From: Cytophagales bacterium
GTDB taxonomy: Bacteria; Bacteroidota; Bacteroidia; Cytophagales; Microscillaceae
Reading direction: 5' to 3'
Length of the DNA stretch: 43,326 nt
NCBI GenBank assembly: GCA_013298075.1
Contig: JAAFJG010000039.1
Span: 1 to 43,326, forward strand
The notes below the pieces were generated by a model that made no database searches, had not been told where the DNA came from, and was given only the letters and a program-made list of their open reading frames with translations. Each line of letters begins with the position of its first letter. Position 1 is the stretch's first letter. Below are positions 289 to 33,383 of the stretch, piece by piece. The position numbers and the translations under genes are program-made.

Positions 289-296
289 TATCTTTG
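289..296 (+). promoter_or_regulatory. Bacteroidota -7 box (TATCTTTG)
   Basis: It matches the Bacteroidota sigma-A -7 consensus TAnnTTTG. Poly-T sequence, not a clear TTTG, occupies the -33 region. Transcription would start near 303, which places the upstream ATG at 294 inside the promoter and supports translation from 327. Confidence 0.55.
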
Positions 297-326
297 TACT
301 TTAAAAACGATAATTTATTTGTTTAT

Positions 327-1232
327 ATGCTTAAAATATCATTATTTGTTCTTATTTATTTATTTTTGACTTCATTTATCAATGCCCAAATGCTTGATAT
401 TCCTACCCAAAAAAGTAAAAAAGGAAAAGAAGAAAATATAACGCTTGAATCTGATACGCTTTCTAAAATTGATACCGATGTAATCAAAACTGAAGATTTT
501 TTGATGCGTTATGATGATAAACAAACTCGAAAAAAGAAAAAAAATGCTAAGAAAAGAAAAAGCAGAAGAATGTATTTGGGTGTCAAAACAAAAGCAGGAT
601 TCATTCGTGATGAAGATGGCGAAAGTTATGATTTATTCAGAACGATAGAATTTGCGCAAGTTGAAAAAACAGGAAATCTAAAAAATATCCATTATTACGA
701 TAGAAAAACAGGAAAAATTCGAAGTGATGAATATAAAAATATCGAAAATAAAATCAAAAAAGGACTTAAAATTGTTGTTTTGCATGGACATTATCAACAA
801 ATTAAAGAAGGTGAAGTTCGATTAGAAGGATATTATAACAAAGGACATAGACACGAAAAATGGTACGAGTTTGATAGAAATGGTATTCTTATCGAAAAAT
901 TAGACTATCATCTTGGACACTCTGAAGAAACACTTATCACGCACCACGATAATGACAGCACAAAATTAAAAGAAATATTGCCAATGGTGCATGGACGCAT
1001 ACAAGGAAAATATATTTTATACCACAAAAACGGTATTGTTGCCAAAGAAGGAAAATTTGATAACAACGAAAAAATAGGTTTTTGGAAAGAATGGTATGAC
1101 AATAAAAAAATGAAAAAAGAAGAACAATATCCACAACATTGGTACGATAAATCTGAACCTATTTTATTAAGAGAATGGGACGATAAAGGAAAATTAACAT
1201 TTGATAAAGATAAAGGTGGTAAACAAAAATAA
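327..1232 (+). CDS. Secreted MORN-repeat-variant protein
   Basis: The product is a 301-residue exported protein of unknown function. I start it at 327, not at the in-frame ATG at 294, because 327 begins a clean signal peptide (LKISLFVLIYLFLTSFINAQ, cleavage after the Ala before Gln) and 294 lies in the -7 box. A Lys/Arg-rich stretch follows at about residues 68-86. The C-terminal half carries at least three MORN_2/YwqK-type units of the form 'G.y..Y..nG....eg.y..g...G.W..w': near 'EGYYNKGHRHEKWYEFDRNG', 'GKYILYHKNG' and 'GKFDNNEKIGFWKEWYDNKK'. Such proteins are common, mostly uncharacterised, periplasmic or surface proteins in Bacteroidota. Although the family is often labelled 'toxin-antitoxin component', nothing here shows a toxin partner. 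Confidence 0.75.
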   Translation: MLKISLFVLIYLFLTSFINAQMLDIPTQKSKKGKEENITLESDTLSKIDTDVIKTEDFLMRYDDKQTRKKKKNAKKRKSRRMYLGVKTKAGFIRDEDGESYDLFRTIEFAQVEKTGNLKNIHYYDRKTGKIRSDEYKNIENKIKKGLKIVVLHGHYQQIKEGEVRLEGYYNKGHRHEKWYEFDRNGILIEKLDYHLGHSEETLITHHDNDSTKLKEILPMVHGRIQGKYILYHKNGIVAKEGKFDNNEKIGFWKEWYDNKKMKKEEQYPQHWYDKSEPILLREWDDKGKLTFDKDKGGKQK

Positions 1233-1342
1233 AAAAAAGAAACGTTCTGTATCATTATAACCAATATTTTTTATAAAAAATGCATTTTCTTACTTACCTA
1301 TGTAAGTTTTTTGTTATATATACGTATAAATTTAACTCAATT

Positions 1343-4300
1343 ATGAAATACAAATACATTATTTTGATGTTTGTTATTTTTTTAACAACTCAAATACATA
1401 CTATTTTTGGAAAAAATCCAACTGCTGTTACAATTACTGCTCCTACTTTATCTAATCTTTGCGTAGGTAGTGCTGTTTATACGCCGTTGGGTAATATTGT
1501 TATTACCGAAGGAGTCAATAATGATATAACAGGCAATCAAAATCATACACTTATTTTGAATATGCCAACAGGTTTTGAACTACAACCATCAACAGGAATA
1601 ATGAATACTTTGGCGGGAGGAAATATTGTTAGTCAGTTTATATTTGTGAGTTCGAATGCTATTTTTATTGCTTTTACTACTGATAATACTACTGATAAAC
1701 CTGATGCAATAACTATCAGTGGTTTGCAAGCAAAAGCGACAATTGTAGCATTAAATCAAAATATGATTGTGGCAAATGGAAGCACAAATAATATCACAGG
1801 AATTACGGTAGGCACGAGTGTAATGGCAACTTTTTCATCTAGTGCTTTACCTACTTTAAACGTGTTGAATAGTGTTATACCTATTTGTGCGGGACAACAA
1901 GTTACATTTACGGCATCGGGAACATCAACTTTATTTTATTTTGAGTTGATGCAAGGAGTAACAAGCCTTAATATTCAAAACTATTCTGCGACTAATACTT
2001 ATACCACTTCTAATGCTTTGGCTGCAGGAAATTATAGTATGAAAGTAATCGGAAAAGATGGCAATGGTTGTGTGAGTACAACGAGTACAACTAATTTTAT
2101 TATCAATGCTATTCCTACTATGACGGTGGGCAATTCTGGGACTTCTATTTGTCAAGGAAAAACGATTACTTTTACTGCTACAGGCACATCAAATTATCGT
2201 TTTGAACTGATGCAAGGGGTTACAAGTTTGGATATTCAAGGGTATGGATTACCTAATACTTATACCACTTCTAATGCTTTATTAGCGGGAAGTTATACGT
2301 TACTTGCTTGGGGGCGCGATGCTAATAATTGTATCAGTACATTGAGTACTACTAATTTTACGATTAATCCATTACCTACCTCTCCTACTATTACGGCGGG
2401 TAATACACAATCCTTTTGTGCGGGAGTTGCTACTTCTACTGTGATTAATACGACTGGAGTTGGTACAAGAAGATGGTTTAATGACGCGGGGTTAACCTCT
2501 GTTGCGTCTTCTTTATCTAATCCTACTTTAAACGATTTAGGTATTACTTCTACTAATTTTCCTGCTGTTTATACTTATTATGTGGTCAATGATAACGGAA
2601 CTTGTTTTAGTAATGTTGTTATTGTAACGATTACTATTCTTCAAAGCCCAGTGGTTTCTTTAACAAGTGGTGATACTAATTATATTATTTGTCAAGGAGA
2701 TCCAGTTACTTTTACAGGCACAGGCAATGCTACGCAATATAGTTTTGATTTACGTATATCTGGTGTTTCACAAGCAGGATTTCCTACTGCCTTTGGAGTT
2801 GTCAATACATTTACCACTTCACCAAGTTTATTGGCAAATAATAATTATTCTATGATAGTTATTGGAAAATTAGCGAATAATTGTGAAACTATTTCAAATA
2901 TAATTAGTTTTCAAATCAAGACTAATCCTTCCGTAACTTTCACTTGGCCTGGCACTACAAGTTTTGTTAATACTGATAATACCGCAGTCAATTTGGCAAG
3001 TTCAGTTACCCCTACGGGAGGTGTTTTTTCGGGAGATGGTATTGCAGGAAATAGTTTTACGCCAAGCGTGGCAGGTTCTGGTTTACATTCTATTACTTAT
3101 ACTTATACAGATGGTAGTAGTGGTTGTTCAGATTCAAAACAAGTATCTGTGAGTGTTACAACGGGTGGATTTATTCTTCCTAGTGCTTTTTGTCAAGGTG
3201 ATGCAGTAACTTCTCCTTTAACGAGTGGTGGTTGTACCACATCAATAGTATCTGCTAATCCTGGCTCTGCTGGTGCTGCAATTACACCTACTTTTGCGTT
3301 TGATCCATCTGCTGTTACCATTCCAACAGGGCAAGATTATGTAAAATGGGAAGGAAGTATATATTTTAGTCCAAATACTGGCGCTTTCTTTCCTTGTCCT
3401 TCTTATGGATTTTACATATTTACTTATGTATTTAGAAGACCAAATCCTATTATTACAGGTACGACTTTAGTATGTGAAAATACTAATAATGTAGTTTATT
3501 CAGTACCTGCTGTGGTAGGTAATAGATATAATTGGACTGTAACAGGTGGAACAATAGTAGGAAGTGCTATTAATAATTCTGTTACTGTCAATTGGGGAAC
3601 TGCGGGTATAGGAACTATTCAAATATCACAAACTGCCAATTATACTACGCCTATTTCTCAAAGTTGTGCGACATCTGTTTCTCAAAACATATCAATTATC
3701 GCGCCTCCTAATCCAAATATAGTTCCGGGTAGTGGTGCTACTTGTGAGGGATCAACAGAAAATTATTCTGTATCTTCTTCCCCATCTAGTACCTATTTAT
3801 GGACTGTAACAGGTGGAATAATAGTAGGTGCCAATAATACAAATAGCATTACAATTACTTGGGGTGCCGCCGCAACAGGACGGACTATTTCAGTAACACA
3901 AACTACATTCTCTTGCAGTGGAACAGACACTAGAAATATTAACGTTAGAACGGTGCCTTCTCCTACTATTACAGGTTCATTAAGTGTTTGTGAGGCAGCA
4001 AATGGTATAAATTACTCAGTTTCGAATGTATTACCTCCTTTCGCTTTGAGTACTTCTTATCAATGGACTGTCATAGGTGGAGCAATAGTAGGAAGTAATA
4101 CAAATGATAATGTTACGGTCAATTGGGGAAGTTCAGGGACGGGAAGAGTTATTATTACACAACAATACAATTATACAAGTATAAATTGTTCAAAAACAAG
4201 TCTTACGAATGTAACTATCAACCCCTTGCCCTCTGTAGCGGTTTTTGTAGGTACAGGAGTTTTTTGTGAAAATACTACTAATAATAATTTTTATACCAAT

Positions 4301-7300
4301 GGGGTAGCAGGTGATACTTATGTATGGTCTGTAACAGGTGGAACAATTGCTTCTGGACAAGGAACAACTTCAATTATGGTCAATTGGGGCGCGCCCGGAA
4401 ACGCCAATGTATCTTTGGTAAAAACAAATAGTAATGGTTGTGCTAGCCTTAGTCCTAATAATTTTACTATTAGGTCAAAACCTAGTCCTTCTATTATATC
4501 CTCAGCAGGTTTTGCTGTTTGTGCGAATAAAACAGGTTTAATATATAATACAAATCCTGTCGTGGGAAATACATATACTTGGTCAGCAATTGGTGGAACC
4601 ATAGTAGGGGCTAATAATACAAATAGTGTTACAATTGATTGGGGAGTTCCTGATCCATTGGCATCTATCACAATCACAGAAACCAATTCTGCTGGTTGTA
4701 TCCATAATTTTACAAGAAATATTAATATTTTGCCTTTACCTAATCCACCTATTTTAGGTAGTTTAGCAGTCTGTGCCAATGCTACCAACGTTAATTATAC
4801 TACATCAGGCTCAGGTACTTTTGTTTGGGCTGTAACAGGGGGGACAATTATATCAGGACAAAATACAAATGTAATTGCAGTGAATTGGGGAGCAGCAGGC
4901 ACAGGAAATGTAAGTATTACCAATACAAATATAAATGGTTGTGTAGGTTCAAACTCTTCTAATGTTACTATTAATGCTTTACCAGCGCCAACTATTTCAG
5001 GAGCAGCAAGTGTTTGTGCAGGTAAAACAGGTGAGGTATATAATGTAACATCATCAGCGAATAGAAGTTATCTTTGGAGTGTTTCAGGTGGAATTATTTC
5101 AGGTACAAATACAAATAATATTGTAACGATAGATTGGGGAACTTCAAATAGTGGTTCATTACAAATTATAGAAACAAATACTTTGACGAATTGTGCTGTA
5201 ACTACCACAAGAATAATTACTATCAATCCGTTACCTAATCCTATTATCACAGGAAACACAAATGTATGCACAGGAATTATAAGAAATTATTCTGTAGTCA
5301 ATGGAGTTAATCAAACGTATAATTGGGTTGTAACAGGTGGGACAATCAATTCAGGACAAGGTACAAATAATATTCAAGTAACTTGGGGAAGTGCAGGTAT
5401 AGGAAATATATCCATCACACAAACAGACAACGTATTAACGCCAAATTGTAGTAAAAATATAAGCCAACCTATTTCTATTTTGCCTTTGCCTAATCCAAAT
5501 ATTATCGGAAATATATCGGTTTGTGCTTCTTCAATAGGCGTACAATATAGCACAGCTTTATCAGCAGGAAATATATATATTTGGAGCGTTACAAATGGAA
5601 CGATTACTATTGGGCAAGGAAGTGATAAAATAAGTGTAGATTGGGCAGCAGCAGGAACAGGACAAGTATCAGTAACACAAACAGACATAAATGGTTGTAC
5701 GAAATCAATCAATCAAAGTATTACGGTTAATCCATTACCTACGCCGATTATCACACAAAATTCAGGAAGTCTTTGTGAAAATACACCAGGAAATATATTT
5801 TCTGTTCCTTCAAGTATGGGAAGAAATTATACTTGGAGTGTAATAGGTGGCACAATTACATCAGGACAAGGCTCAAATAATATCAATATTACTTGGGGAA
5901 ATGCAACAAATATAGCTTCTGTTTCGGTTGTTGAAACAGTCATAGCTACGACTTGCTCAGGAACTACCACCAACAATGTAATTATTATTCCAAAACCAAC
6001 ACCTAATGTTACCAGCGTTACTACTTCGGTTTGTGCTAATCAAATGGGAGTAATTTATTCTACACCTCAAATAATAGGAAATTCATATCTTTGGTCAATA
6101 ACAGGTGGAACTATTACCGCAGGACAAAATACAAATCAAATTACAGTCAATTGGGGGTTGATTAATCCAAGTGCGTCTATTAGCGTTACAGAAACAGCTG
6201 CCAATGGTTGTATTGTAATATCATCAAAAAGTATTATTATCAATCCATTACCAACACCTTCTGTTTCAGGAGACATAGTAGTTTGTCAAGGTTCTACTAA
6301 TAATGTTTATAGCACAAATTTTGTATCAGGAAATTCATATTTTTGGACGGTTGTAGGTGGCGTAGGAACTTCATTTGTAGGACAAAATACAAATCAAATT
6401 ACAGTTACTTGGGGAGCAGCGGGATCAGGAACAGTTTCAGTATTAGAAACAATAATTACTACCAATTGTAAAGTTAGCCAAACCAGAAATATCAACATCA
6501 GTCCATTGCCCACTCCAACTATTGCTAATAATAGTGCAGTATGTGCTAATTCGACAAATAATATTTACAGCACAAACTTAGTGGCGGGCAATACTTATTT
6601 GTGGGACGTTACCAATGGCATAATCATAAGTGGACAAAATACAAATCAAATCTCAGTTACTTGGGGGAGTACAGCCACAGGTATCGTAAAAGTTACGCAA
6701 ACAATTACAGCTACTAGTTGTGTAAAAGTTATGACGCAAAATATCGTTATTAATCCATTGCCAACACCAAATATTATAGGCGGAGTAATAGGTACTAATA
6801 ATGTTTGTGCTACTCTAACTTATACTTATCGAACGCCAAATATTATGGGACATACTTATAATTGGACAGTAACTAATGGCACTTTTACAGGACAAGGCAC
6901 AAATCAAATTAGTGTAACTTGGGGCAATAGTTCGGTTGGAATAGTAGAATTAACTCAAACTAACACACTTTTAGTACCTAATTGTTCTAAATATGCAAGT
7001 GTTGATGTGATTATTTTACCATTACCAACGCCTTCTATCATAGGTGCAGGAGTAGTTTGTCAGGATAACAAGTATGCTTATTCTACTACACTTATTGCGG
7101 GACATACGTATATTTGGGAAGTAAATAATGGAACAATCGTATCAGGAACGGGTACAAATGCTATCCTTGTCGTATGGGATGATGTTTCTGCTACTCAATT
7201 TGTAAAAGTTACACAAATAAGTAGTAATACAACTCCTAACTGCTCGCAAATTGCTCAAATTCCAGTGGTAGTTAATCCTGTGCCTTATAATACGATTGTG

Positions 7301-9358
7301 GTTGCAAATACTTGTTATGGTGAAATTACTACATTTACTCCTTCCAGTACTCAACCTGATTGGATTTGGGAATGGGTTTTTCCTGATAATACAACATCTA
7401 ACGTTAGTAATCCGTCTAAAATATTTCCTACCGCAGGTAATTTTTCAGTAAAAGCAAAAGTTACCAATCAATATGGTTGTTTTTATGAACAAAATACGAT
7501 TCCTTTGGCTATCAATCCTGTTCCTGTAGCAAATTTTAGACATTCAGGAACTTGTTTGGGAAGTACAACACAATTTATAAATTTATCAACATTGGCTACT
7601 ACCAATGTAAGTTTTATTACTCAATGGAGTTGGGATTTTGGTGATGGTTCACCTATTTTAGTAGGAAATTTTCCTAATCCAACACATTCATTTGTGAATC
7701 CAGGTGTATATGATGTGAAACTAATTGTAACAAGTAATAGAAATTGTTCCCATACAATTACTAAAAAAGTAATTATCTTTCCATTTTTTGCTCCCACAGA
7801 TACTACGCCTTACAATGAAGCATTTGAAACGACTAATCACGGTTGGGTTTCTGGAAGTTATAATGGTTTGAATAGCTGGGGAACGGTCCCAAATGTTCCA
7901 TTGCCTTCAAGAACAGTTCAAGGTAGTACAGGAAAAATATGGAGTACAGGTTTGAGTAATAATTATGCAAATGCTGAACGCTCTTATGTAGAAAGTCCGT
8001 GTTTTGATTTACAAGGTTTAACGAGACCTATGTTAACTATCAAAAAATGGTCAGACTCTGAAGTAGGTTTAGATGGAACGGTCATATTATATACAATTGA
8101 CGAAGGAACAACTTGGAAAGTATTAGGAGACATAAATGAAGGTTTATATTGGTATAACCAAAATAATATTCTCTCAACTCCCGGCCCTGGAGGAGAAATC
8201 AATCAAAAACGTTCAGGCTGGACAGGGAAAGATAATGCGTGGATTGATGCTCGATTTGCCTTAGATGCCGTGAAGGCAGATGCAGGTGCTAACTCAGTTC
8301 GTTTTAGAATTGCGTTTAGTAGTAATGCAGATAATTTACCAGGTAGATGGGATGGATTTGCTTTTGATGACGTAAGAATTTTAAACCGAGATGGCAAAGT
8401 ATTACTAGAACATTTTACCAATATGTCATCTGTGGTAGAAAATGAATCAGTCAATTTATTTTCCCCTGAAACAGTAAAATTACAATATCATACGAATTTG
8501 GCGAATGATAATGATAAATTATATCAAGAGAATAGAGCAGATGGCGGCGCAAGGGCGTTATTTTATGGTATTTCTGAGATAGCACGTGCTGCTATGAATG
8601 GTAAGGCAAACACAACACAACAATTTAGTAATTGGGCAGCAAATGCGTATTCACAAAATGCATTAAATTCTCCAAGATTTGATGTAAAATTGACGTTTCC
8701 TTCATCACCAACAAATACACTTAATATCAATGTGGCTGTGAAAGCAAATCTACCTTATACTAAACCTGTGGTAGTGCATATCGTTTTAGTTGAAAAACAA
8801 GTTACTTCTACACAATTAGGCGTAACAGGCACAACTATTTATAAAAATATAGTCAGAAAAATGCTTCCGAGTGCAGGGGGGACATTATTTTCAAGTACTT
8901 GGGCGGTGAATCAAGTACAAAATTTCTCACAAAATATTTCAATTTATGCAATGACTCAAGAAAATGGAGCAAAGTTTTATGATTGGAATAATTTATCTGT
9001 GGTGGCTTTTGTGCAAGATTATGAAACAAAAGAAGTATATCAAGCCGACCAAAATATAATCCCGATTATATTGCCAACGTTAATTTCAGGGATAGAAGAT
9101 GAGTTAAAAAAACAATGCTGGATTTATCCAAATCCTACTTCTGATGAAGTTTTTATTGGTTTTAAAGACGAAGTAGTCGGTGATTATCAATGGGAAATCT
9201 ATAGTATGCAAGGCGTAAAAATAAGTCAAGGCATCATCAATGAAGGAGAGAAAGGCGTAAAAATTGATGTTACTAAATATCCAAAAAGTATGTATATTAT
9301 CAAAATCATTAATCCACGTTCTCAATCCGTTTGGCAGTCTAAATTAGAAATTAGATAA
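1343..9358 (+). CDS. Giant secreted PKD-like repeat protein with Omp28-like module and T9SS sorting domain
   Basis: The product is a predicted cell-surface or extracellular protein of 2671 residues. Start 1343 is preferred over 1280 because it begins a signal peptide (MKYKYIILMFVIFLTTQIHT). The N-terminal 700 residues hold Ig-like repeats of the type 'ICqGk.itFTAtGt..Y.FeLmqG'. Residues ~700-1975 hold about 15 units of ~85 residues with the signature 'Y.WsVtGGtI..GqgtN.i.V.WG.aGtg.isvtqt...gC', typical of the PKD-like family. Two PKD domains follow (~1978-2148; WSWDFGDGS), then a jelly-roll-like segment (~2153-2350; SYVESPCFDLQG). Residues ~2352-2570 resemble Omp28 (VLLEHFTN, NIVRKMLPSAGG, VVAFVQDYETKEVYQA), but the usual Cys-x-x-Cys after 'FT' is missing. 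The last 80 residues are a type A T9SS sorting domain (IYPNPTSDEVFI...). The likely role is adhesion or surface layer; the ligand is unknown. Confidence 0.9.
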   Translation: MKYKYIILMFVIFLTTQIHTIFGKNPTAVTITAPTLSNLCVGSAVYTPLGNIVITEGVNNDITGNQNHTLILNMPTGFELQPSTGIMNTLAGGNIVSQFIFVSSNAIFIAFTTDNTTDKPDAITISGLQAKATIVALNQNMIVANGSTNNITGITVGTSVMATFSSSALPTLNVLNSVIPICAGQQVTFTASGTSTLFYFELMQGVTSLNIQNYSATNTYTTSNALAAGNYSMKVIGKDGNGCVSTTSTTNFIINAIPTMTVGNSGTSICQGKTITFTATGTSNYRFELMQGVTSLDIQGYGLPNTYTTSNALLAGSYTLLAWGRDANNCISTLSTTNFTINPLPTSPTITAGNTQSFCAGVATSTVINTTGVGTRRWFNDAGLTSVASSLSNPTLNDLGITSTNFPAVYTYYVVNDNGTCFSNVVIVTITILQSPVVSLTSGDTNYIICQGDPVTFTGTGNATQYSFDLRISGVSQAGFPTAFGVVNTFTTSPSLLANNNYSMIVIGKLANNCETISNIISFQIKTNPSVTFTWPGTTSFVNTDNTAVNLASSVTPTGGVFSGDGIAGNSFTPSVAGSGLHSITYTYTDGSSGCSDSKQVSVSVTTGGFILPSAFCQGDAVTSPLTSGGCTTSIVSANPGSAGAAITPTFAFDPSAVTIPTGQDYVKWEGSIYFSPNTGAFFPCPSYGFYIFTYVFRRPNPIITGTTLVCENTNNVVYSVPAVVGNRYNWTVTGGTIVGSAINNSVTVNWGTAGIGTIQISQTANYTTPISQSCATSVSQNISIIAPPNPNIVPGSGATCEGSTENYSVSSSPSSTYLWTVTGGIIVGANNTNSITITWGAAATGRTISVTQTTFSCSGTDTRNINVRTVPSPTITGSLSVCEAANGINYSVSNVLPPFALSTSYQWTVIGGAIVGSNTNDNVTVNWGSSGTGRVIITQQYNYTSINCSKTSLTNVTINPLPSVAVFVGTGVFCENTTNNNFYTNGVAGDTYVWSVTGGTIASGQGTTSIMVNWGAPGNANVSLVKTNSNGCASLSPNNFTIRSKPSPSIISSAGFAVCANKTGLIYNTNPVVGNTYTWSAIGGTIVGANNTNSVTIDWGVPDPLASITITETNSAGCIHNFTRNINILPLPNPPILGSLAVCANATNVNYTTSGSGTFVWAVTGGTIISGQNTNVIAVNWGAAGTGNVSITNTNINGCVGSNSSNVTINALPAPTISGAASVCAGKTGEVYNVTSSANRSYLWSVSGGIISGTNTNNIVTIDWGTSNSGSLQIIETNTLTNCAVTTTRIITINPLPNPIITGNTNVCTGIIRNYSVVNGVNQTYNWVVTGGTINSGQGTNNIQVTWGSAGIGNISITQTDNVLTPNCSKNISQPISILPLPNPNIIGNISVCASSIGVQYSTALSAGNIYIWSVTNGTITIGQGSDKISVDWAAAGTGQVSVTQTDINGCTKSINQSITVNPLPTPIITQNSGSLCENTPGNIFSVPSSMGRNYTWSVIGGTITSGQGSNNINITWGNATNIASVSVVETVIATTCSGTTTNNVIIIPKPTPNVTSVTTSVCANQMGVIYSTPQIIGNSYLWSITGGTITAGQNTNQITVNWGLINPSASISVTETAANGCIVISSKSIIINPLPTPSVSGDIVVCQGSTNNVYSTNFVSGNSYFWTVVGGVGTSFVGQNTNQITVTWGAAGSGTVSVLETIITTNCKVSQTRNINISPLPTPTIANNSAVCANSTNNIYSTNLVAGNTYLWDVTNGIIISGQNTNQISVTWGSTATGIVKVTQTITATSCVKVMTQNIVINPLPTPNIIGGVIGTNNVCATLTYTYRTPNIMGHTYNWTVTNGTFTGQGTNQISVTWGNSSVGIVELTQTNTLLVPNCSKYASVDVIILPLPTPSIIGAGVVCQDNKYAYSTTLIAGHTYIWEVNNGTIVSGTGTNAILVVWDDVSATQFVKVTQISSNTTPNCSQIAQIPVVVNPVPYNTIVVANTCYGEITTFTPSSTQPDWIWEWVFPDNTTSNVSNPSKIFPTAGNFSVKAKVTNQYGCFYEQNTIPLAINPVPVANFRHSGTCLGSTTQFINLSTLATTNVSFITQWSWDFGDGSPILVGNFPNPTHSFVNPGVYDVKLIVTSNRNCSHTITKKVIIFPFFAPTDTTPYNEAFETTNHGWVSGSYNGLNSWGTVPNVPLPSRTVQGSTGKIWSTGLSNNYANAERSYVESPCFDLQGLTRPMLTIKKWSDSEVGLDGTVILYTIDEGTTWKVLGDINEGLYWYNQNNILSTPGPGGEINQKRSGWTGKDNAWIDARFALDAVKADAGANSVRFRIAFSSNADNLPGRWDGFAFDDVRILNRDGKVLLEHFTNMSSVVENESVNLFSPETVKLQYHTNLANDNDKLYQENRADGGARALFYGISEIARAAMNGKANTTQQFSNWAANAYSQNALNSPRFDVKLTFPSSPTNTLNINVAVKANLPYTKPVVVHIVLVEKQVTSTQLGVTGTTIYKNIVRKMLPSAGGTLFSSTWAVNQVQNFSQNISIYAMTQENGAKFYDWNNLSVVAFVQDYETKEVYQADQNIIPIILPTLISGIEDELKKQCWIYPNPTSDEVFIGFKDEVVGDYQWEIYSMQGVKISQGIINEGEKGVKIDVTKYPKSMYIIKIINPRSQSVWQSKLEIR

Positions 9359-9369
9359 AAATAAAAATA

Positions 9370-9403
9370 TTTTTACCCCATTTTTTATATTTTGGGGTAA
9401 AAA
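9370..9403 (+). terminator. Perfect hairpin between the giant gene and the next gene
   Basis: The arms TTTTTACCCCA (9370-9380) and TGGGGTAAAAA (9393-9403) pair perfectly around a 12-base loop and are followed by TTGTTTT. It lies 11 bp after the stop at 9358 and 30 bp before the ATG at 9434. It may end the transcript or work as a partial attenuator that lowers expression of the downstream genes. Confidence 0.65.
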
Positions 9404-9433
9404 TTGTTTTATAAAACACATCAAAAAAAAATT

Positions 9434-10552
9434 ATGAAAAATCAGTATAGTCAAGAAAAAAAAATATTTTTATTTTTATTTTTATGTTTAATAAATTCTC
9501 TTATATTTGCACAAGATTGTAAAGATATTTTGCAAAGAGCAGAAGTTGCTTATAAAAAAGGACACTTAAATGACGTAAAAGAAATTTTAAACCAAGAATG
9601 TATCGATGTTTTACCCTCAAACGAGGATAAAGAAAAGGCATATTATTTGGTTACTTTATCTAATTTATATCTAAAAGATGTAGAGGCGGCAAAAGAATCA
9701 ATGTTAAAAATTTTGCATCAAAATCCTGAATATATATGTGACCCAATCAGTCCTGTAGCATTTCAAAAATTTTATAATTCTTTTAAAACTACGCCTTTTA
9801 TAGTTTTGGGAGCAAAAGCAGGAGGAAATTTTTCTCAAATTAAATCTGAAAAAGTGTATTCTTTAGATGATTCAAAAACTGCCCAAGAAGGAACTTATAC
9901 TTCTTCAGTTGGGTTAAATATACAAGTATTTGTGAAATTACCTATTTATAAAAGAATAGAATTGAGATTAGAGGCGGGCTTTAAACAAATTAATTATTCA
10001 TTTAAGAATCGACAATTTGGATATAGTACCATAAAATTTACAGAAAAACAAAGTGTTATCGAAATACCTATTATAGTAAAATATAATTTTGGGAATAATT
10101 ATAATTTTAAAAGAAGAAGTAAAAATATTTTACAATCTTTGAATCCTTATGTAGTAGGTGGAATTTCTACTACTTATTTATTGGCAAGCAAAGGCAATAT
10201 TTTTAGAGAAGATAAATTATTGACAAATGGTCTTTCTACTTTAACCTCGCCCGATTATAATTTGAAATCGATGAGAAATACTTTTGCTGTGTATGGTGTG
10301 GGAGGAATAGGAATAGAATTTAAAAAAAATAGGTCAATTTTTACCCTTGAATGTCGTTATAATTATGGATTTACGCCTATCATAAAATCAAGTGCGAGAT
10401 ATGATAATCAAGATATGTTATTGAGTTATGGTTATATAGATAGTGATATAAAATTTAGAAATATAATGATTACAGCAGGTTATGCTATTCCTTTATATCG
10501 TCCAAAACAAATCAGACAATTTTTTGCTGATGAAATCACTGATAAAAAATAA
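9434..10552 (+). CDS. Outer-membrane beta-barrel protein (PorT-like) with N-terminal helical repeat region
   Basis: The product has 372 residues from the ATG at 9434, which precedes the signal peptide (IFLFLFLCLINSLIFAQ). The ATG at 9404 would put ten odd residues before it and lies against the hairpin. Residues ~22-115 form a TPR-like helical segment (CKDILQRAEVAYKKGHLNDV...). From ~120 onward the sequence alternates as amphipathic strands with Gly/aromatic turns (FIVLGAKAGGNFSQI, NIQVFVKLPIYKRIELRLEAG, IEIPIIVKYNFG, MITAGYAIPLY), as in PF13568-type barrels. Part of a + strand run with the lipoprotein and cyclase (gaps 29 and 10 bp). A transport or sensing role alongside the cyclase is inference only. 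Confidence 0.75.
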   Translation: MKNQYSQEKKIFLFLFLCLINSLIFAQDCKDILQRAEVAYKKGHLNDVKEILNQECIDVLPSNEDKEKAYYLVTLSNLYLKDVEAAKESMLKILHQNPEYICDPISPVAFQKFYNSFKTTPFIVLGAKAGGNFSQIKSEKVYSLDDSKTAQEGTYTSSVGLNIQVFVKLPIYKRIELRLEAGFKQINYSFKNRQFGYSTIKFTEKQSVIEIPIIVKYNFGNNYNFKRRSKNILQSLNPYVVGGISTTYLLASKGNIFREDKLLTNGLSTLTSPDYNLKSMRNTFAVYGVGGIGIEFKKNRSIFTLECRYNYGFTPIIKSSARYDNQDMLLSYGYIDSDIKFRNIMITAGYAIPLYRPKQIRQFFADEITDKK

Positions 10553-10581
10553 AAAATACTTAAATTAAAAAAAATAAAAAA

Positions 10582-11772
10582 ATGAAAAAATATTATCTCA
10601 TCTTTCTTATTTGTAGTGGATTCATTTTGAGTGCTTGTACTTCTAAAAATGATGCAAGCCCCGATGAATCTGGCTTGTTTATCAAAATATTAGGAGGTAA
10701 TCAAGACGATACTGTCAATGATTTTTTTATAAGTGATAATGGAGAAATTGTTGGTACAGGAACAACACAAAGCTTTAGAATAAATAATGATTTTACTAAT
10801 ATTCTTTTATTTAAAACAGATAAATTAGGCAATAAAATTTTCCTAAAAGGATTAGGTGGGGCGGAAGGAAGTTCTATTATTCCTACTAACGATGGTGGTT
10901 ATGCTATTTTGGGTAATACTTCAAATTTTATTACACTCCCTTCTTATCATTTACTTAAAATTAATGCACAAGGAACAATCGAGTTAGATAGGACATATTC
11001 ACCTATTTTATCATCAGGTAAGTCAACTAAAGCAGTATCAGTAGCTATAGGGCAAGATAATAATTATTTGCTGATGGGTAATGTTGAGGTTAATTCCAAA
11101 AATACTATATATTTTATGAAAGTATCATCTATTGGAGATGTACTATCAGACAAATACTATACTTATGCTAATTCAAGTAATACTATAGCAAAAGGAAAAA
11201 TGTTAGCCAACGGAGATGGGGTTATAGTAGGGACAATTACTGAAAATGGTGACTCAAAAATACGAATAACTTTAATCAATTCAGATTTAGGTCCTAAATG
11301 GGATTTTAATTATAAATCAGATATTGCTTTGAGTACAACATCTGCCTCAGATATTCAAATTGCTAATGCAGGTTTTATTGTGGCAGGTACTTCTATCGTG
11401 AACAAAAAAAATGTAGGTTTCTTATTGAAAACGAACTCTAATGGTCTTTTGACTTGGAAAAAAGATATTAACATAGGTGCCGGTCTAAGTATTAATTCTG
11501 TTTATCCTACTCAAGATGGTGGATATATCTTAACGGGTAATGTATTGCTGACTGATAGGGAAATACCACACACACATATTTGGGTAGGTAAAGTAGATGC
11601 TACAGGTAATTTGGAATGGAATAAAGACTTTGGAAATAGAAAAGATGACAAAGGAGTTTGTGTGCGAGTTACAAAGGAAGGGAATTATGTGGTGATGGGT
11701 AATATAGATTTTGGAACGAGCGAAACGTTGGTATTGATAAATTTAGATAAAAATGGTAATTTAATCCGCTAA
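10582..11772 (+). CDS. Lipoprotein with propeller-like 'DGGY..GN' repeats
   Basis: The product is a 396-residue lipoprotein. The signal peptide ends in the lipobox LSAC, so Cys19 would be lipidated. The mature part repeats a unit of ~45-55 residues: 'tnDGGYailGnt......llKinaqGti.w.k.y', for example NDGGYAILGNTS, QDNNYLLMGNVE, QDGGYILTGNVL and KEGNYVVMGNID. At least six or seven units are visible, which would fit a beta-propeller. No enzyme motif is seen. It starts 29 bp after the barrel gene and ends 10 bp before the ATG that begins the cyclase leader, so the three are probably co-transcribed. A ligand-binding or scaffold role is plausible but unproven. Confidence 0.75.
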   Translation: MKKYYLIFLICSGFILSACTSKNDASPDESGLFIKILGGNQDDTVNDFFISDNGEIVGTGTTQSFRINNDFTNILLFKTDKLGNKIFLKGLGGAEGSSIIPTNDGGYAILGNTSNFITLPSYHLLKINAQGTIELDRTYSPILSSGKSTKAVSVAIGQDNNYLLMGNVEVNSKNTIYFMKVSSIGDVLSDKYYTYANSSNTIAKGKMLANGDGVIVGTITENGDSKIRITLINSDLGPKWDFNYKSDIALSTTSASDIQIANAGFIVAGTSIVNKKNVGFLLKTNSNGLLTWKKDINIGAGLSINSVYPTQDGGYILTGNVLLTDREIPHTHIWVGKVDATGNLEWNKDFGNRKDDKGVCVRVTKEGNYVVMGNIDFGTSETLVLINLDKNGNLIR

Positions 11773-11782
11773 AAAAAAAAAA

Positions 11783-11880
11783 ATGAAATTTTTATTGCAA
11801 TTATTTGTGTCTTATTATTTTATGTTACAATCACTAAAGCCCAAGATATTTACAAACCTTATGTAAATAATGATAGCTCT
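11783..11880 (+). other. Displaced signal-peptide coding sequence of the cyclase gene (apparent 1-nt frameshift)
   Basis: An ATG at 11783 follows the A-run after the lipoprotein stop, but its own frame closes at 11864-11866. The frame of the cyclase (codons in phase with 11881) is open from just after 11772 and encodes FIAIICVLLFYVTITKAQ followed by DIYKPYVNND, a textbook signal peptide, with no start codon. Adding one T to the T5 run at 11789-11793 joins ATG-Lys-Phe to this peptide and to the rest of the gene. Either the assembly has a homopolymer error or the gene is off or slippage-controlled in this strain. Confidence 0.75.
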
Positions 11881-13905
11881 ATGGCAAATAATGATGTATT
11901 AGCAAGACTTAGATTGTTAAATAGTAACACTACAAAAAAAATATCTTTAAAAGCCTTAAAACTTACTAAATTTCCAACTGCTCTTCTTAAATTTAAAAAT
12001 TTAGAAGAATTAGATTTGTCAGGAAATAATATAATGGTATTGCCTGAAGAATTGGGAAACTTAGAAAAATTACGCGTGTTAAATATCAATAGTAATAGAC
12101 TACAAAGATTACCCGCATCTATCAAAAAATGTAAGGAATTATCACATTTAGGCATTGCTTATAATAAATTAAAAATTTATCCCGATGAAATAAACGCCCT
12201 TACTTCTTTACAAACTCTAGATATTAGCGGAAATAGTTTGATAGATATTCCTGAAGAAATTGGCAATCTTACCAACTTAAATGCTTTGTATTGTTCGCAT
12301 AATAGTTTGTCATTTTTACCAGAAAATATTGGTAAACTTACAAAATTAAAATTGTTATTTGCTTTTAATAATCAAATTAAAAAACTCCCAAAAGAAATTA
12401 AAAATCTCAAGGAAGTTAGTAATTTACAATTATATAACAATGAATTGACAGAATTACCCAAAGAAATGGGAGAAATGACCGCACTGACTTTTCTTGGTAT
12501 TTCTAAAAATAATTTTAAAGAAATACCAGATGAATTGGCTAAAATCCCAAAACTAAAAAAAATATACATCAAAAGAAAAGACGAACAATCGCCTATTATT
12601 CATGATGATTTGTTGGCTTATATCAGAGATAATGTGGTAGAAACCGACGTGTATGACATCAATAATAAATTTATTGAGTTTGGTAGAAGGCAACAACAAG
12701 CACAACTTTTGGCAGATCAAGAGAAAAAAAGTAAAGAATTAGAATTAGAAAATTCTAAAAAGGAAACGGCATTACAAATTGCAAGAACAAAAGAAGCGGA
12801 AGCGGAAAGGCAATTAGCAGAAACGAGATCGAAACAAAATGCAGAAAGAGAAGCAGCAAAACGTGAAAAATTAGAAAGAGAAAAAGAACTTTCTGAACAA
12901 CGTAGAAAAAGTCAAGAAATTGAAAATAAAGCACGTGAAGAAAAGGCAGCCGCAGAAAAAAAAGAACTCGAAAATAAAAATGCACAAAAACAACAAGAAC
13001 TTGAAAACGAAAAACTAAAAACGCAAAGTGCGCAATTAGCAGGAGAGGCTGTAAAACAAAAAGCAGAAAAAGAACGACAATTTCAACGAACTATTATTTC
13101 TGTGTTTATTGGTGGGTTGATTTTGGCAGGTTTATTTATGATTTTTGTATTGTATAGTAACCGAAAAATCAAACAAAAACAAAAAGAAGCGGAACTACAA
13201 AAAGCAAAAGCCGATGCTTTATTATTGAATATTTTGCCTCTCGAAGTAGCAGAAGAATTAAAGGAAAAAGGCACGACACAAGTACGTACTTTTGACGATG
13301 CTTCTGTGTTATTTGCTGATATTAAAGGGTTTTCTGCGTTGGCTACAAAAGTAACGCCTCAAGAACTTATCAAAGAATTAGACACAACTTTTGGTATGCT
13401 TGATGATATTGTAAAAAAATATGATATTGAAAGGATAAAAACCATTGGCGATTGTTATATGTGTGTGGGTGGTGTGCCTACGCCTAATCCTGCAAATGCG
13501 GTCAATATGATTATGTCCGCTTTAGAAATTCAACATTGGATGGCAGATGAAAAAATAAGAAGAAATGGAGATTTTTGGGAAGTGCGTTTGGGAGTTCACG
13601 TAGGAGAATTAGTGGCGGGAGTAGTAGGAAAAAGTAAATTTGCTTATGATGTTTGGGGAAATGCTGTAAATACTGCCTCACGTATGGAGTCAGGCGGAGA
13701 AGTTGGAAAAGTAAATATTACATTGGATACATATAAAAAAGTAGAGGATTTTTTCGAGTGTACGTACAGAGGAAAAATAGAAGCCAAAAATATTGGTTTA
13801 GTAGATACTTATTTTGTGAAAGGTCTCAAACCTGAATATTCTATCAATGGTTTGGGCAAAGAACCGAATGAGATTTTTTTCGCCAAAAGGAATTTAATAA
13901 AATAG
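11881..13905 (+). CDS. LRR - coiled coil - transmembrane - class III adenylate cyclase
   Basis: A 674-residue open frame. Residues ~19-235 are eight to nine leucine-rich repeats (LEELDLSGNNIMVLPEELGN). Residues ~265-400 are a charged coiled coil. A membrane segment spans ~405-425 (IISVFIGGLILAGLFMIFVLY). The C-terminal half is a class III cyclase: metal-binding Asp480 (ADIKGF) and Asp524 (IGDCYM), adenine-selecting Lys520 and Asp590 (YDVWGNAVNTASRM), and transition-state Asn597 and Arg601. The Lys/Asp pair predicts ATP, not GTP, as substrate, giving cAMP. With the displaced signal peptide restored (see 11783-11880), the LRRs and coil face the periplasm and the cyclase the cytoplasm: a receptor cyclase. 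It follows the barrel and lipoprotein genes closely. The ATG at 11881 is the first in-frame start and is probably not the original one. Confidence 0.9.
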   Translation: MANNDVLARLRLLNSNTTKKISLKALKLTKFPTALLKFKNLEELDLSGNNIMVLPEELGNLEKLRVLNINSNRLQRLPASIKKCKELSHLGIAYNKLKIYPDEINALTSLQTLDISGNSLIDIPEEIGNLTNLNALYCSHNSLSFLPENIGKLTKLKLLFAFNNQIKKLPKEIKNLKEVSNLQLYNNELTELPKEMGEMTALTFLGISKNNFKEIPDELAKIPKLKKIYIKRKDEQSPIIHDDLLAYIRDNVVETDVYDINNKFIEFGRRQQQAQLLADQEKKSKELELENSKKETALQIARTKEAEAERQLAETRSKQNAEREAAKREKLEREKELSEQRRKSQEIENKAREEKAAAEKKELENKNAQKQQELENEKLKTQSAQLAGEAVKQKAEKERQFQRTIISVFIGGLILAGLFMIFVLYSNRKIKQKQKEAELQKAKADALLLNILPLEVAEELKEKGTTQVRTFDDASVLFADIKGFSALATKVTPQELIKELDTTFGMLDDIVKKYDIERIKTIGDCYMCVGGVPTPNPANAVNMIMSALEIQHWMADEKIRRNGDFWEVRLGVHVGELVAGVVGKSKFAYDVWGNAVNTASRMESGGEVGKVNITLDTYKKVEDFFECTYRGKIEAKNIGLVDTYFVKGLKPEYSINGLGKEPNEIFFAKRNLIK

Positions 13906-30218: not shown

Positions 30219-33200
30219 TTAACCAAAGTATTCTTTATACTTTGCAGGGCGTTCTTTTTTGATATTTACTAAAAGTTCATTGACTTTATTATGATGTCTG
30301 CAATATGTAATCAAAGCCATTATTTTTTGTTTTTTGGGCATTACACCTGCGAAATTATTGCTTACTTCATCAAAATACATAAAACAAAATTCTTGTATAC
30401 CATCATCATCAAAAGCCTCCTCAAGAAGTTGAAGTAAAGTAGCATTATTTACTTCACCAATATTTTGAACTACATCGGGAATAGATGTTTTTATTTCTGA
30501 TTTTGTTTCTTCAAAACTAAAATCAATCATAAAACCTAAAACTCTTGATTTCCAATCTTCCAACTGAAAATTATTAGTACGATTGACAAAATCATATTTG
30601 AGTGTATTAAAAGTTGATTTTTGTGAACCATTCATTTTATTTTCATGAGATTTCAAAACCTCCAATAAATCAGGAATGGCAGACATAACGCCTTCTGATA
30701 GGCGTTTTTTAAATGTTTCAGTATTCATATTTTCATTATTTATATTGTTTTTATTTTCTTTCAAACCACTCAAACCCCAATATTTTTCTGTGTCAGATTT
30801 ATTTTCGCCTTGTGTGATACGCCCTTTTAGATTGCCTTCATTGGCAATACTTTTTAATTCTTCTTTGATTTTTTGGATTACAACCTTATTATTCGATACA
30901 ATAGAAATGGTGCGATTCGTATAATTTGCTTCTACGATTGCATTTCCTTCTTGTGTAGATACATATAAGCCTTTTTGCCACATATATTGCACCTCCGAAA
31001 AACGACTTGCCAATACAATAAACCGCTGTATAAATACTTTGGGTAAAAAAGTATATTCGATTTTTTCTTTTGTAGATTGTTGTATGATTTCATTTTCATA
31101 AAAAACTACTTCCGCTGGCTTTTCCAAAGGCAAAAGAGATGGCACTGCAAAAGTCCTTTCGTTTAATGGCTGATAATCTTTTTTATCCTTAGTCGTTTCA
31201 AAAGCCAATTCTGCACTCAACATAAAATCTATAAACAATTTTCTTTCGTCATCTGTATTATTTTCCCAAATTTTACAAATATTTTTATACAACAATGTTC
31301 CTTTTTGTAATTTGGCAACTATTTCAGAAATATATTTATTTTCTCGGTTTAGTATTTTATAAATGGCTTCGATTGCCCAACTTTGATTTAAAATAATTTG
31401 ACTATTAAAATATTTCTCTTGATAATAAAAAACTCCTGTATCGTGGAGATAATTTAAAACCGTATTAGAGGCAGAAATACAACCTTTTTCTTCACAAATT
31501 ACTTGAAATTCTGCTATGGAAATGGTTTTTATATCTTCTTTTTGTTTTTGTTTTATGACTTCACGCACATGTACCCAATCCGTAGGCAAGTCATTTTGTT
31601 GAAAAGCAGGATTATTTGTAAATATATCTTCTAAAATATATTCCAATGCCTCGAAACCCTCATTATTTTCTGCACTCACTTGCAAAAAATCAATAATAGG
31701 AAACTCTTTTTTCCATCTATCTTTATGATCTTTCAAAAAATCCTTTTGATTAGGTTTGTCTATTTTATTTTGTAACACCAAAATAGGACTTTCTTTGCCA
31801 AAACAATGGGCATATTCTAACCAATATTGTAGTTTTTCGTTGTCATATTGTTTATCTTCCCACGTATGAGATGCACAATTTTCATTGTCAAAATCCCAGA
31901 CCAACACAAACAAAGCACGACTTTGCATAAACAAACGGTGTGTGGCGTGATACAAATCCTGTCCCGCAAAATCCCAAATATTTACCTCAAAATCTCCTAA
32001 TATGCTACACAATATCTCGATAGCATGTGTAGAATTGTGTACTTTATTTATTACAAAATTCTCTTTTTCTTCTAATCTTCTCGCTACTTGTGTTTTGCCT
32101 ACACTACCATTGCCCACCAAAATCAGTTTTACTTCTCTATTTTTTGTACTTCCCTTGGAAATTCCTTCTAAATAATCTCGTACTTGTTTTAAAACATTTT
32201 CACGTTTATTAAAAATTTCTTTGGGAATATTTTTGATTGGATTGTTATGCAATTCAAGTTTATTTAACTTTAGAAAGTGATTGAGAAAGTCTAAAGAAAT
32301 ATCCGAGATTTGATTAATTCCTAAATCTAAATTTGTTAAATTTGTTAAAGATTGTAAAAATGAAATATCAGAAATTTCATTGTTAGCTAAGTTGAAAACA
32401 TTTAAATTCGTTAGAGACTGTAAAAAAGAAATATCTGAAATTTTATTACCCCATAAATTTAAACTTGTTAAATTAGGCAAGTTTTCTAAAATTATTTGTT
32501 CAATCTGTAAATATTTTAAATCTAATTCTTTAATATTCTCAAAGTTGAATAATTTAATAGATTTTAAAGGGTTATTGTTTATTCCCAGTGTTTGTAATTT
32601 TGATAAATTTGATAAAGAAATATCTGAAATTTTATTGTTACCTAAGTTTAAAACATTTAAATTCGTTAGAGATTGTAAAAAAGAAATATCTGAAATTTGA
32701 TTATAACCTAAACTTAATTCTGTTAAATTTGTTAAAGATTGTAAAAAAGAAATATCTGAAATTTGATTATAACCTAAACTTAATTCTGTTAAATTTGTTA
32801 AAGATTGTAAAAAAGAAATATCTGAAATTTGATTATGACCTAAACCTAATTCTGTTAAATTCGTCAAAGATTGTAAAAAAGAAATATCTGAAATTCGATT
32901 ACCATCTAAATTTAAACTCATTAAATTCGTCAAAAATTGTAAAAAAGAAATATCTGAAATTTGATTAACACCTAAATCTAAACTTGTTAAATTCGTCAAA
33001 GATTGTAAAAAAGAAATATTTGAAATTCCATTACTCCATAAATTTAAAGTAGTTAAATTTGTTAATGATTGTAAAGGTGAAATATCTGAAATTCGATTAA
33101 TATTTAAATTTAAACTCGTTAAATTCGTCAAGGATTGTAAAAAAGAAATATCTGAAATTGGATTATTACTTAAATTTAAAATGATTAGATTTGGAAAGGA

Positions 33201-33383
33201 TTGTAAAAAAGAAATATCTGAAATTCGACGACCAGCTATATTTAACCCAATAACGCCTTCGTTTTTATTAAGTAAACATGTTCCACTTTCTCTATTGTTT
33301 AAAATATCATCAACCTTGTAAGTTTCTTCAAATTTAAAACCTAGTATTTCTTCTAACTCAAGTATTTCTGCAGGTTTGCTCAT
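30219..33383 (-). CDS. LRR-Roc-COR GTPase with C-terminal effector-associated (EAD/death-like) domains
   Basis: A 1054-residue Roco-family protein. Residues ~46-390 are about 15 LRRs of 22 residues (ISDISFLQSLTNLTELSLGYNQ). A linking helix (~393-408) leads to the Roc GTPase: G1 GNGSVGKT 424-431, G3 DFAGQD 471-476, G4 NKID 539-542. A COR domain follows to ~860. After a low-complexity Asn/Glu linker come two small helical domains: ~895-955 (EAD11-like) and ~980-1050 (LLQLLEEAFDDDGIQEFCFMYF...VNELLVNIKKERP). Domains of the latter kind are adaptor, death-fold-like modules in prokaryotic conflict systems that pair with a matching effector; no second carrier is in the window. It is convergent to the R-M pair. 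LRRs would be the sensor and Roc-COR the switch. Confidence 0.88.
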   Translation of the reverse strand: MSKPAEILELEEILGFKFEETYKVDDILNNRESGTCLLNKNEGVIGLNIAGRRISDISFLQSFPNLIILNLSNNPISDISFLQSLTNLTSLNLNINRISDISPLQSLTNLTTLNLWSNGISNISFLQSLTNLTSLDLGVNQISDISFLQFLTNLMSLNLDGNRISDISFLQSLTNLTELGLGHNQISDISFLQSLTNLTELSLGYNQISDISFLQSLTNLTELSLGYNQISDISFLQSLTNLNVLNLGNNKISDISLSNLSKLQTLGINNNPLKSIKLFNFENIKELDLKYLQIEQIILENLPNLTSLNLWGNKISDISFLQSLTNLNVFNLANNEISDISFLQSLTNLTNLDLGINQISDISLDFLNHFLKLNKLELHNNPIKNIPKEIFNKRENVLKQVRDYLEGISKGSTKNREVKLILVGNGSVGKTQVARRLEEKENFVINKVHNSTHAIEILCSILGDFEVNIWDFAGQDLYHATHRLFMQSRALFVLVWDFDNENCASHTWEDKQYDNEKLQYWLEYAHCFGKESPILVLQNKIDKPNQKDFLKDHKDRWKKEFPIIDFLQVSAENNEGFEALEYILEDIFTNNPAFQQNDLPTDWVHVREVIKQKQKEDIKTISIAEFQVICEEKGCISASNTVLNYLHDTGVFYYQEKYFNSQIILNQSWAIEAIYKILNRENKYISEIVAKLQKGTLLYKNICKIWENNTDDERKLFIDFMLSAELAFETTKDKKDYQPLNERTFAVPSLLPLEKPAEVVFYENEIIQQSTKEKIEYTFLPKVFIQRFIVLASRFSEVQYMWQKGLYVSTQEGNAIVEANYTNRTISIVSNNKVVIQKIKEELKSIANEGNLKGRITQGENKSDTEKYWGLSGLKENKNNINNENMNTETFKKRLSEGVMSAIPDLLEVLKSHENKMNGSQKSTFNTLKYDFVNRTNNFQLEDWKSRVLGFMIDFSFEETKSEIKTSIPDVVQNIGEVNNATLLQLLEEAFDDDGIQEFCFMYFDEVSNNFAGVMPKKQKIMALITYCRHHNKVNELLVNIKKERPAKYKEYFG
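32695..32826 (-). repeat. Two identical 66-bp tandem copies inside the LRR array
   Basis: Bases 32695-32760 and 32761-32826 are identical and each encodes one complete LRR. Flanking repeats differ by only a few bases. This indicates recent unit duplication by recombination or slippage. Confidence 0.9.

Follow-up and report, generated by a model that had tools for sequence, protein, structure and literature searches.

A genus-level gene row joining an outer-membrane barrel, a propeller-like lipoprotein and a predicted leucine-rich-repeat adenylate cyclase in the Microscillaceae

Gene content of the locus

The window analyzed here is a stretch of 43,326 nucleotides from a Cytophagales bacterium of the Microscillaceae (GenBank assembly GCA_013298075.1, contig JAAFJG010000039.1) and constitutes contig C87 of the draft genome G000, which comprises 4.7 Mb in 153 contigs. 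Our subject is a row of plus-strand genes that encode, in order, a 312-amino-acid open reading frame (ORF), a giant PKD-repeat protein of the type IX secretion system (T9SS), an outer-membrane barrel protein, a lipoprotein and a predicted class III adenylate cyclase; the next genes after the cyclase lie on the opposite strand. A preliminary description had proposed that the last three, being tightly spaced, form a unit that carries signals from the outer membrane to cyclic AMP (cAMP). All three genes were confirmed and the gaps between them in the window are short, but the unit is not one of three genes, since the giant gene directly upstream belongs to it as a fourth. The barrel and lipoprotein genes are separated by 29 bp, and the lipoprotein stop codon precedes the ATG at 11783 by 10 bp and the in-frame ATG at 11881 by 108 bp. 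The features of the row are as follows.

294..1232, plus strand: 312-amino-acid ORF with a weak MORN_2 match, below the Pfam cut-off
1280..9358, plus strand: giant 2692-amino-acid PKD-repeat protein with a T9SS C-terminal sorting domain (Pfam)
9369..9404, plus strand: hairpin with a 12-bp stem in the gap between giant and barrel genes, a possible attenuator or terminator (z = -3.6)
9434..10552, plus strand: outer-membrane protein with signal peptide, helical front resembling tetratricopeptide repeats (TPR-like) and beta-barrel (Pfam, AlphaFold2, Foldseek)
10582..11772, plus strand: beta-propeller lipoprotein, lipobox Cys19 (alignment, AlphaFold2, Foldseek)
11783..11785, plus strand: ATG matching the position of the congeners' cyclase start codon, in a different frame from the cyclase in the window (sequence, congeners)
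11788..11844, plus strand: signal-peptide-like codons in the cyclase frame with no in-frame ATG, GTG or TTG before them (aligned with the N-termini from genomes G001, G002 and G004)
11881..13905, plus strand: protein of 674 amino acids with leucine-rich repeats (LRR), charged helix, transmembrane (TM) segment and class III adenylate cyclase domain, from the first in-frame ATG
11941..12582, plus strand: LRR region, predicted periplasmic, bounds approximate (LRR_14, LRR_8, LRR_4)
12685..13041, plus strand: charged stretch of 119 residues free of proline and glycine, presumably helical (composition)
13093..13149, plus strand: single TM segment (hydropathy)
13282..13824, plus strand: class III adenylate cyclase catalytic domain (Pfam, site residues)

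Comparisons within the family used a sample of 15 genomes, three of which (the window's own G000, together with G001 and G002) belong to the genus. The giant protein matched PKD_6 in 15 stretches (E value 1e-103) and Por_Secre_tail with an E value of 2e-9, and the 312-amino-acid ORF is also found 5' of the giant gene in G001 (84% identity to L119:193-1158). The hairpin between the giant and barrel genes has a counterpart at L039:7842-7868 (z = -3.9) and none was found at this gap in L040, so that it is present in two of the three genus genomes; perhaps it sets the expression ratio of the two genes. Scans for promoters (25 sites versus 28 in shuffled sequence) and for terminators (4 versus 1.7 in shuffles) were not used.

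The barrel protein and the lipoprotein

Mechanical ORF calling gives 9404..10552 on the plus strand for the barrel gene; we took the ATG at 9434 as its start, in agreement with the preliminary description. The protein matched the Pfam family OMP_b-brl_2 above cut-off (E value 1e-16), while OMP_b-brl and one spurious match fell below it. An AlphaFold2 model built from a 9-row alignment (pLDDT 80.8, pTM 0.67) contains a signal helix, six helices within residues 32-114, and then eight long strands plus one short strand, and OmpW, OmpA and NspA were among the best solved structures matched to it by Foldseek. Family match, eight-strand model and structural neighbors together confirm an outer-membrane barrel. 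Its front had been described as TPR-like, and the six predicted helices agree with that wording; TPRs as such were rejected, since Pfam gives no TPR match in this protein. Because an eight-strand barrel has both of its ends in the periplasm, the helical front is most likely periplasmic in the modeled arrangement. The Pfam scan also gave no PorP/SprF match, and the protein thus does not qualify as a T9SS helper of the SprF/PorP type.

The lipoprotein, which yielded no Pfam match, has a lipobox cysteine (Cys19) that is invariant in the 14 proteins aligned. Its AlphaFold2 model (8 rows, pLDDT 86.6, pTM 0.84) is all-beta except for the signal helix and comprises 28 strands, and its best matches in the PDB are propellers, with CylK at the top (TM score 0.76-0.79 by Foldseek). 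The model therefore supports a propeller fold, and the earlier view of a propeller-like lipoprotein is borne out.

Domains, start and predicted membrane topology of the cyclase

Pfam matches above cut-off in the cyclase were confined to LRR and cyclase domains, with E values of 9e-41 for LRR_14 and 2e-49 for Guanylate_cyc (PF00211; 168 bits against a cut-off of 21.9). The catalytic residues are complete in the window protein, namely the metal aspartates 516 and 560, the purine pair Lys556 and Asp626, Asn633 and Arg637, and these six positions are identical in all ten other cyclases compared. In class III cyclases these positions serve as metal, purine and transition-state (Asn and Arg) sites, and an alignment was made to adenylate cyclase 9; a Lys/Asp purine pair is of the ATP type, as opposed to Glu/Cys. 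By its catalytic residues the enzyme is predicted to be an adenylate cyclase with cAMP as its output.

Between the LRR region and the TM segment lie 119 residues without proline or glycine, 48% of them charged. This stretch had been called a long coiled coil, a label that did not hold up: at 131 residues, its hydrophobic heptad power falls short of the mean for shuffled sequence, and 86% of shuffles reach it, so that a charged helix with no more heptad periodicity than shuffled sequence is the better description. At 1.5 A per residue such a helix would be some 18-20 nm long and could span a large part of a periplasm.

Apart from the signal-like stretch there is one TM-like segment, at residues 441-459 of the frame that is open from 11773. 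In the window protein this segment is flanked by a net charge of +3 at either end. In the orthologues from G001, G002 and G004 the net charge is +3 on the cyclase side and +1, +1 and 0, respectively, on the opposite side, a pattern as expected if the cyclase domain is cytoplasmic.

The start of the gene is unusual. The cyclase frame, open upstream to 11773, encodes a signal-like stretch ending in KAQDIY, yet no ATG, GTG or TTG in frame precedes that stretch, the ATG at 11783 lies in another frame, and the protein that begins at the ATG at 11881 lacks a signal peptide. In G001 and G002 an in-frame ATG 13 bp after the lipoprotein stop codon opens a signal-like stretch whose last residues are QDIY or QDIF, and the G004 orthologue likewise starts with such a stretch; signal peptides were judged by eye together with hydropathy, and the G002 stretch fell under the hydropathy threshold. 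We describe the broken start of the window gene as a one-base discrepancy, either an assembly error or a mutation. The signal-like starts of the congeners, the single TM segment and a cyclase of the cytosolic type fit a periplasmic LRR arm, and the LRR region is likely periplasmic on this pattern. For the window gene itself this part of the preliminary description is qualified by the out-of-frame start.

Conservation in the genus and family

Barrel matches were obtained in 14 of the 15 family genomes and lipoprotein matches in 12, weak and partial matches included. The complete row of giant, barrel, lipoprotein and cyclase genes occurred in three of the 15, which are all three genus genomes of the sample; the G002 contig begins within the giant gene. 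The gap between lipoprotein and cyclase is 10-13 bp in each of the three, and the gene that follows the cyclase is different in each. All seven neighbor pairs that could be scored in the row were kept (4/4 in G001 and 3/3 in G002), compared with one of 15 pairs of successive conserved segments in the 19.4 kb downstream (1/10 on one contig in G001, 0/5 in G002); the pooled Fisher p of 4.7e-5 is a guide only, since short draft contigs inflate the apparent number of breaks. Background segments were of at least 350 bases with E values below 1e-60, weaker or repeated segments being omitted, and they were scored from 40 first-look candidates per genome, so that the background count may lack some conserved segments.

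Ten of the 12 family genomes outside the genus supplied 15 regions around a barrel or lipoprotein gene, and none of these regions contains a cyclase match. Of the remaining two, G010, which has a weak partial barrel match, was left out, and G012 gave neither a barrel nor a lipoprotein match. In G003 and in one of the G005 copies the contig stops before the downstream side, and in G004, G007 and G009 it stops within the next gene.

Homologues of the giant gene adjoin the barrel-lipoprotein pair at six loci (L119, L120, L121, L123, L125 and L126), and a giant protein with a T9SS C-terminal domain adjoins both copies of the pair in the genus and also those of G013 and G006. The second copy, present in each of the three genus genomes, is followed by another giant T9SS protein (L063, L064 and L065), and no cyclase lies beside it in any of the three.

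Origin of the cyclase linkage

Phylogenetic trees place the cyclase-linked pairs beside genes of another genus, g3, with support of 100/99 for the barrel and 96/96 for the lipoprotein; the barrel tree carries a long-branch warning at its outgroups. A different gene follows the lipoprotein in g3. It encodes 295 amino acids as called in G013 and is cut by the contig end in G004, and the two proteins (L066:6720-7607, minus strand, and L073:5738-6412, plus strand) look secreted and are 44% identical over 209 residues. We therefore rejected the idea that the cyclase dates back as far as the pair does; since the g3 pairs lack it, it either joined later or was lost in g3.

Cyclases of the same layout also occur away from the pair. 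LRR-cyclase paralogues were found in G000 (contig C6), G001, G002 and G009, with two more at L042 (G004) and L087 (G013), and the regions read around them contained no barrel or lipoprotein match. The LRR-cyclase orthologue of G004 is preceded by 94 bases up to the contig end, in which none of three frames holds a lipoprotein-like end. The window's own genome has ten matches to the class III cyclase domain, nine of them near full length. Searching the order with the N-terminal half of the cyclase, with at most four candidates scored per genome, gave seven matches of at least 326 bits and a next best of 212 among the matches listed, and all seven were loci already known.

An order-wide operon of nSTAND1, barrel and lipoprotein genes

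A profile of the barrel matched in 186 of 390 genomes of the order, many of the matches being partial. Sixty regions (L156-L215) of 7 kb to either side, from 50 genomes, were taken from the best full-length barrel matches listed outside the family, with partial and family matches omitted; seven of the regions are shorter than 14 kb because of contig ends, and related species among the 60 are not independent. A barrel ORF was recognized in 55 regions, and the other five hold both an nSTAND1 gene and the lipoprotein. Directly upstream of the barrel lies an nSTAND1 gene in 49 of the 55, a lipoprotein homologue is directly downstream in 46, and both partners stand in these positions in 44. The barrel and lipoprotein thus travel together across the order, usually directly behind an nSTAND1 NTPase. 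No cyclase match was obtained in any of the 60 regions.

The row often extends further upstream. A TIR/DUF4062-like gene is present in 45 of the 60 regions (44 with a single-sequence query), each time directly before the nSTAND1 gene, and a membrane/HEAT gene is present in 43 (43 also with a single-sequence query), standing before the TIR/DUF4062-like gene in 30. The hidden Markov models behind these neighbor tallies derive from members of the set to which they were applied, and the single-sequence repeats were near-identical for the two upstream genes. Among three TIR/DUF4062-like proteins scanned, one matched DUF4062 above cut-off and two matched TIR_2 below it; the one full-length membrane/HEAT protein scanned has HEAT repeats and a cyclic-nucleotide-binding (cNMP-binding) domain (E value 8e-8). 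A long ORF often follows the lipoprotein in the order-wide copies, and low-scoring matches to T9SS C-terminal domains occur in six extended regions (L239, L241-L244 and L246).

The two nSTAND1 proteins scanned begin with the NTPase and end in WD40 repeats. In all 54 nSTAND1 proteins with at least 950 amino acids the NTPase is followed by a TM-like segment that is preceded by more positive charge than comes after it, and in 49 of the 54 a stretch of at least 80 residues free of proline and glycine runs on from this segment. With such a topology the WD40 repeats would lie in the periplasm, mirroring the predicted LRR-helix-TM-cyclase arrangement.

The window shares with these regions a barrel gene followed by a lipoprotein gene, both homologous to those of the order. 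No nSTAND1 gene lies directly upstream of its barrel, where the giant gene stands instead; nSTAND1 is found on contig C128, and each of the three genus genomes keeps it as an orphan gene away from the row, for which reason we rejected a plain swap of nSTAND1 for the cyclase. Within the family the order-wide operon occurs at L067, L069, L070 and L071.

Taking family and order together, the gene order proposed in the preliminary description holds in the three genus genomes and fails beyond them, with no cyclase in the 15 family or the 60 order-wide regions; outside the genus this matches the pattern, independent occurrence of the three genes in most relatives, that the description had itself named as refuting its proposal. 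The candidate of one conserved receptor class made of the three genes was rejected for the same lack of a cyclase in the 60 regions. As judged from these comparisons the three-gene unit is a genus-level assembly and not a general receptor class.

Several further observations were made in these regions. Contractile-injection (eCIS-like) genes, recognized by Pfam as Pvc16, sheath, tube and gp25, lie within reach of the barrel gene in seven of the 60 (L156, L157, L158, L163, L205, L206 and L212), and in three of these, L205, L206 and L212, both nSTAND1 and the lipoprotein are missing next to the barrel. Such genes also occur in three of 15 further regions (L236, L237 and L238), located beside the second pair of G002, near the G006 pair and in sequence that continues the G157 region. 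None occur in the remaining 12 regions, of which two come from the window's own genome. That genome has a Pvc16 gene on the contig of its second pair, about 67 kb away. Near the orphan nSTAND1 gene of G002 lies a gene for a protein with cNMP-binding and SpoIIE-phosphatase domains (L228:13772-15082, minus strand), of which a look-alike, so judged by eye and with a cNMP match, is encoded on contig C90 of G000 (L249). Elsewhere in the window, at 30219-33383 on the minus strand, is an LRR-Roc-COR protein with an EAD7 effector-associated domain.

A possible relay across the envelope

The reading that we tentatively place first, and to which we give somewhat less than an even chance, is that the row is a genus-specific operon in which a cyclase with a periplasmic LRR was added to an older, order-wide envelope module and is coupled to it by contact. 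The giant, barrel, lipoprotein and cyclase genes would be read on one transcript. The LRR head would reach toward the outer membrane and touch the barrel front or the lipoprotein; a change in the barrel/lipoprotein complex, for example when the surface protein is engaged or missing, might then pass through the helix, the TM segment and the linker to the cyclase dimer and alter cAMP, which the cNMP-binding proteins of the cell could read. Six cNMP_binding matches above cut-off, in five frames, were found in the window's own genome. The predicted locations of the parts, from surface protein through barrel, lipoprotein, LRR and helix, and TM segment to cyclase, suit such a relay, and a coupling of the barrel and lipoprotein to the cyclase is plausible. 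In favor of this reading are the row shared by the three genus genomes whose downstream 19.4 kb are rearranged among them, the congener starts and single TM segment that fit a periplasmic LRR, and the similar layout of the nSTAND1 protein behind which the barrel stands elsewhere in the order; the cyclase looks like a late arrival in an older module. The interpretation in the preliminary description is thus supported in part.

A number of observations weigh against this relay. Among the family and order regions examined, the cyclase stands beside the pair only in this genus, and the pairs nearest to it in both trees, those of g3, carry a different gene behind the lipoprotein. With ten class III cyclase matches in the genome, a cyclase next to any given gene is less surprising. 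The hairpin between the giant and barrel genes is present in two of three genomes, the charges flanking the window TM segment give no indication of its orientation, heptad periodicity is absent from the helix and the signal-peptide frame of the window gene is broken. The orphan nSTAND1 gene is kept in the genus, leaving a simple swap unsupported.

The strongest rival, somewhat doubtful in our estimation but a serious contender, is that the four genes are co-expressed neighbors that make no contact and that the cyclase is a stand-alone periplasmic sensor with a ligand of its own, such as peptidoglycan fragments. The LRR-cyclase paralogues with no barrel or lipoprotein in the regions read around them would be explained in this way, as would the G004 orthologue, whose 94 upstream bases hold no lipoprotein end. 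Peptidoglycan is located where the window LRR is predicted to be, and the LRR of the Candida adenylyl cyclase Cyr1 binds muramyl dipeptide (PMC3795026). A stand-alone sensor accounts less well for a row that the three genus genomes all keep while the sequence beside it is rearranged.

A broader version of the contact-based relay seems unlikely to us: in Cytophagales the barrel with its periplasmic helical front, the lipoprotein and a giant T9SS protein might form a trans-envelope platform with an exchangeable inner-membrane reader that carries its repeat domain on a long periplasmic helix, nSTAND1-WD40 in most of the order and the LRR-cyclase in this genus. If this were true, signals from surface proteins would be turned into cAMP or into a STAND switch, and the platform would have contractile injection genes as neighbors in certain species.

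It is more improbable still that the barrel and lipoprotein serve to secrete or anchor the giant T9SS protein and that the cyclase only tunes the giant's expression. A T9SS giant does adjoin the pair in both genus copies, in G013 and in G006, and a long ORF follows many order-wide copies, six of them with low-scoring T9SS C-terminal matches in the extended regions; however, the usual upstream neighbor in the order is nSTAND1 rather than a secretion part, and Pfam finds no PorP/SprF match in the barrel. That the window gene is truly broken, so that only the signal-less protein is made, is very improbable: the signal-like codons have no in-frame ATG, GTG or TTG before them and the ATG at 11783 is out of frame, but those codons are still hydrophobic, the remaining 674 codons are intact with their active-site residues kept, and a read or assembly error in the A/T runs of a draft genome would look identical.

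To our knowledge few bacterial systems pass the state of the outer membrane or of surface proteins to cytoplasmic second messengers. The row is a small, closely packed set of genes for which cAMP is the predicted output. The wider order-level operon, which links the barrel and lipoprotein of the outer membrane to a STAND-type protein of the inner membrane, is of greater interest than the row and deserves its own study.

Comparison with known systems

The cyclase has the catalytic domain of class III adenylate cyclases (PF00211), with the same metal aspartate pair, Lys/Asp pair and Asn/Arg positions. Entries 5o5k and 7yzi, named "Adenylate cyclase" in the PDB, we take to be the mycobacterial Cya, and the LLLNILP linker before the catalytic domain of the window protein is presumably the cyclase transducer element. 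Cya has a polytopic membrane anchor, whereas the window cyclase has one TM segment, a charged helix and LRRs. That class III cyclases can carry other sensors is well established. Compared with the nSTAND1-WD40 operon, the window has a homologous barrel and lipoprotein in the same order and a transducer that likewise has one TM segment and a long stretch free of proline and glycine; in that operon the NTPase gene is upstream of the barrel, whereas in the window the cyclase is downstream and no nSTAND1 gene is linked.

Neither the window unit nor the order-wide operon was found described in the open-access literature, among the matches listed. Other STAND or propeller systems are described in two reports (PMC7159879 and PMC10907252). 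PG1058, a T9SS protein, combines TPR, propeller and an OmpA_C-like domain in one outer-membrane lipoprotein chain (PMC5053529). The window resembles it in having TPR-like and propeller parts at the outer membrane in a T9SS setting, and differs in splitting them over two proteins with no OmpA_C match by Pfam. We take PG1058 to be PorE.

The preliminary description had held that class III cyclases with an ectodomain of LRR plus coiled coil are, to its knowledge, not a standard receptor class. A bacterial protein with signal peptide, LRR, helix, TM segment and cyclase was indeed not found in the open-access literature among the matches listed, which is weak evidence, but the union of LRR and cyclase is known from fungi. 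Fungal Cyr1 carries LRRs and a class III cyclase in one chain, with the LRR as sensor (PMC3795026). The window protein joins the same two elements in one chain. Cyr1 has further domains, RA and PP2C, and no further Cyr1 domains are among the Pfam matches of the window cyclase. Unlike in Cyr1, the signal-like start of the congeners and the single TM segment would put an LRR of the window type outside the cytoplasm.

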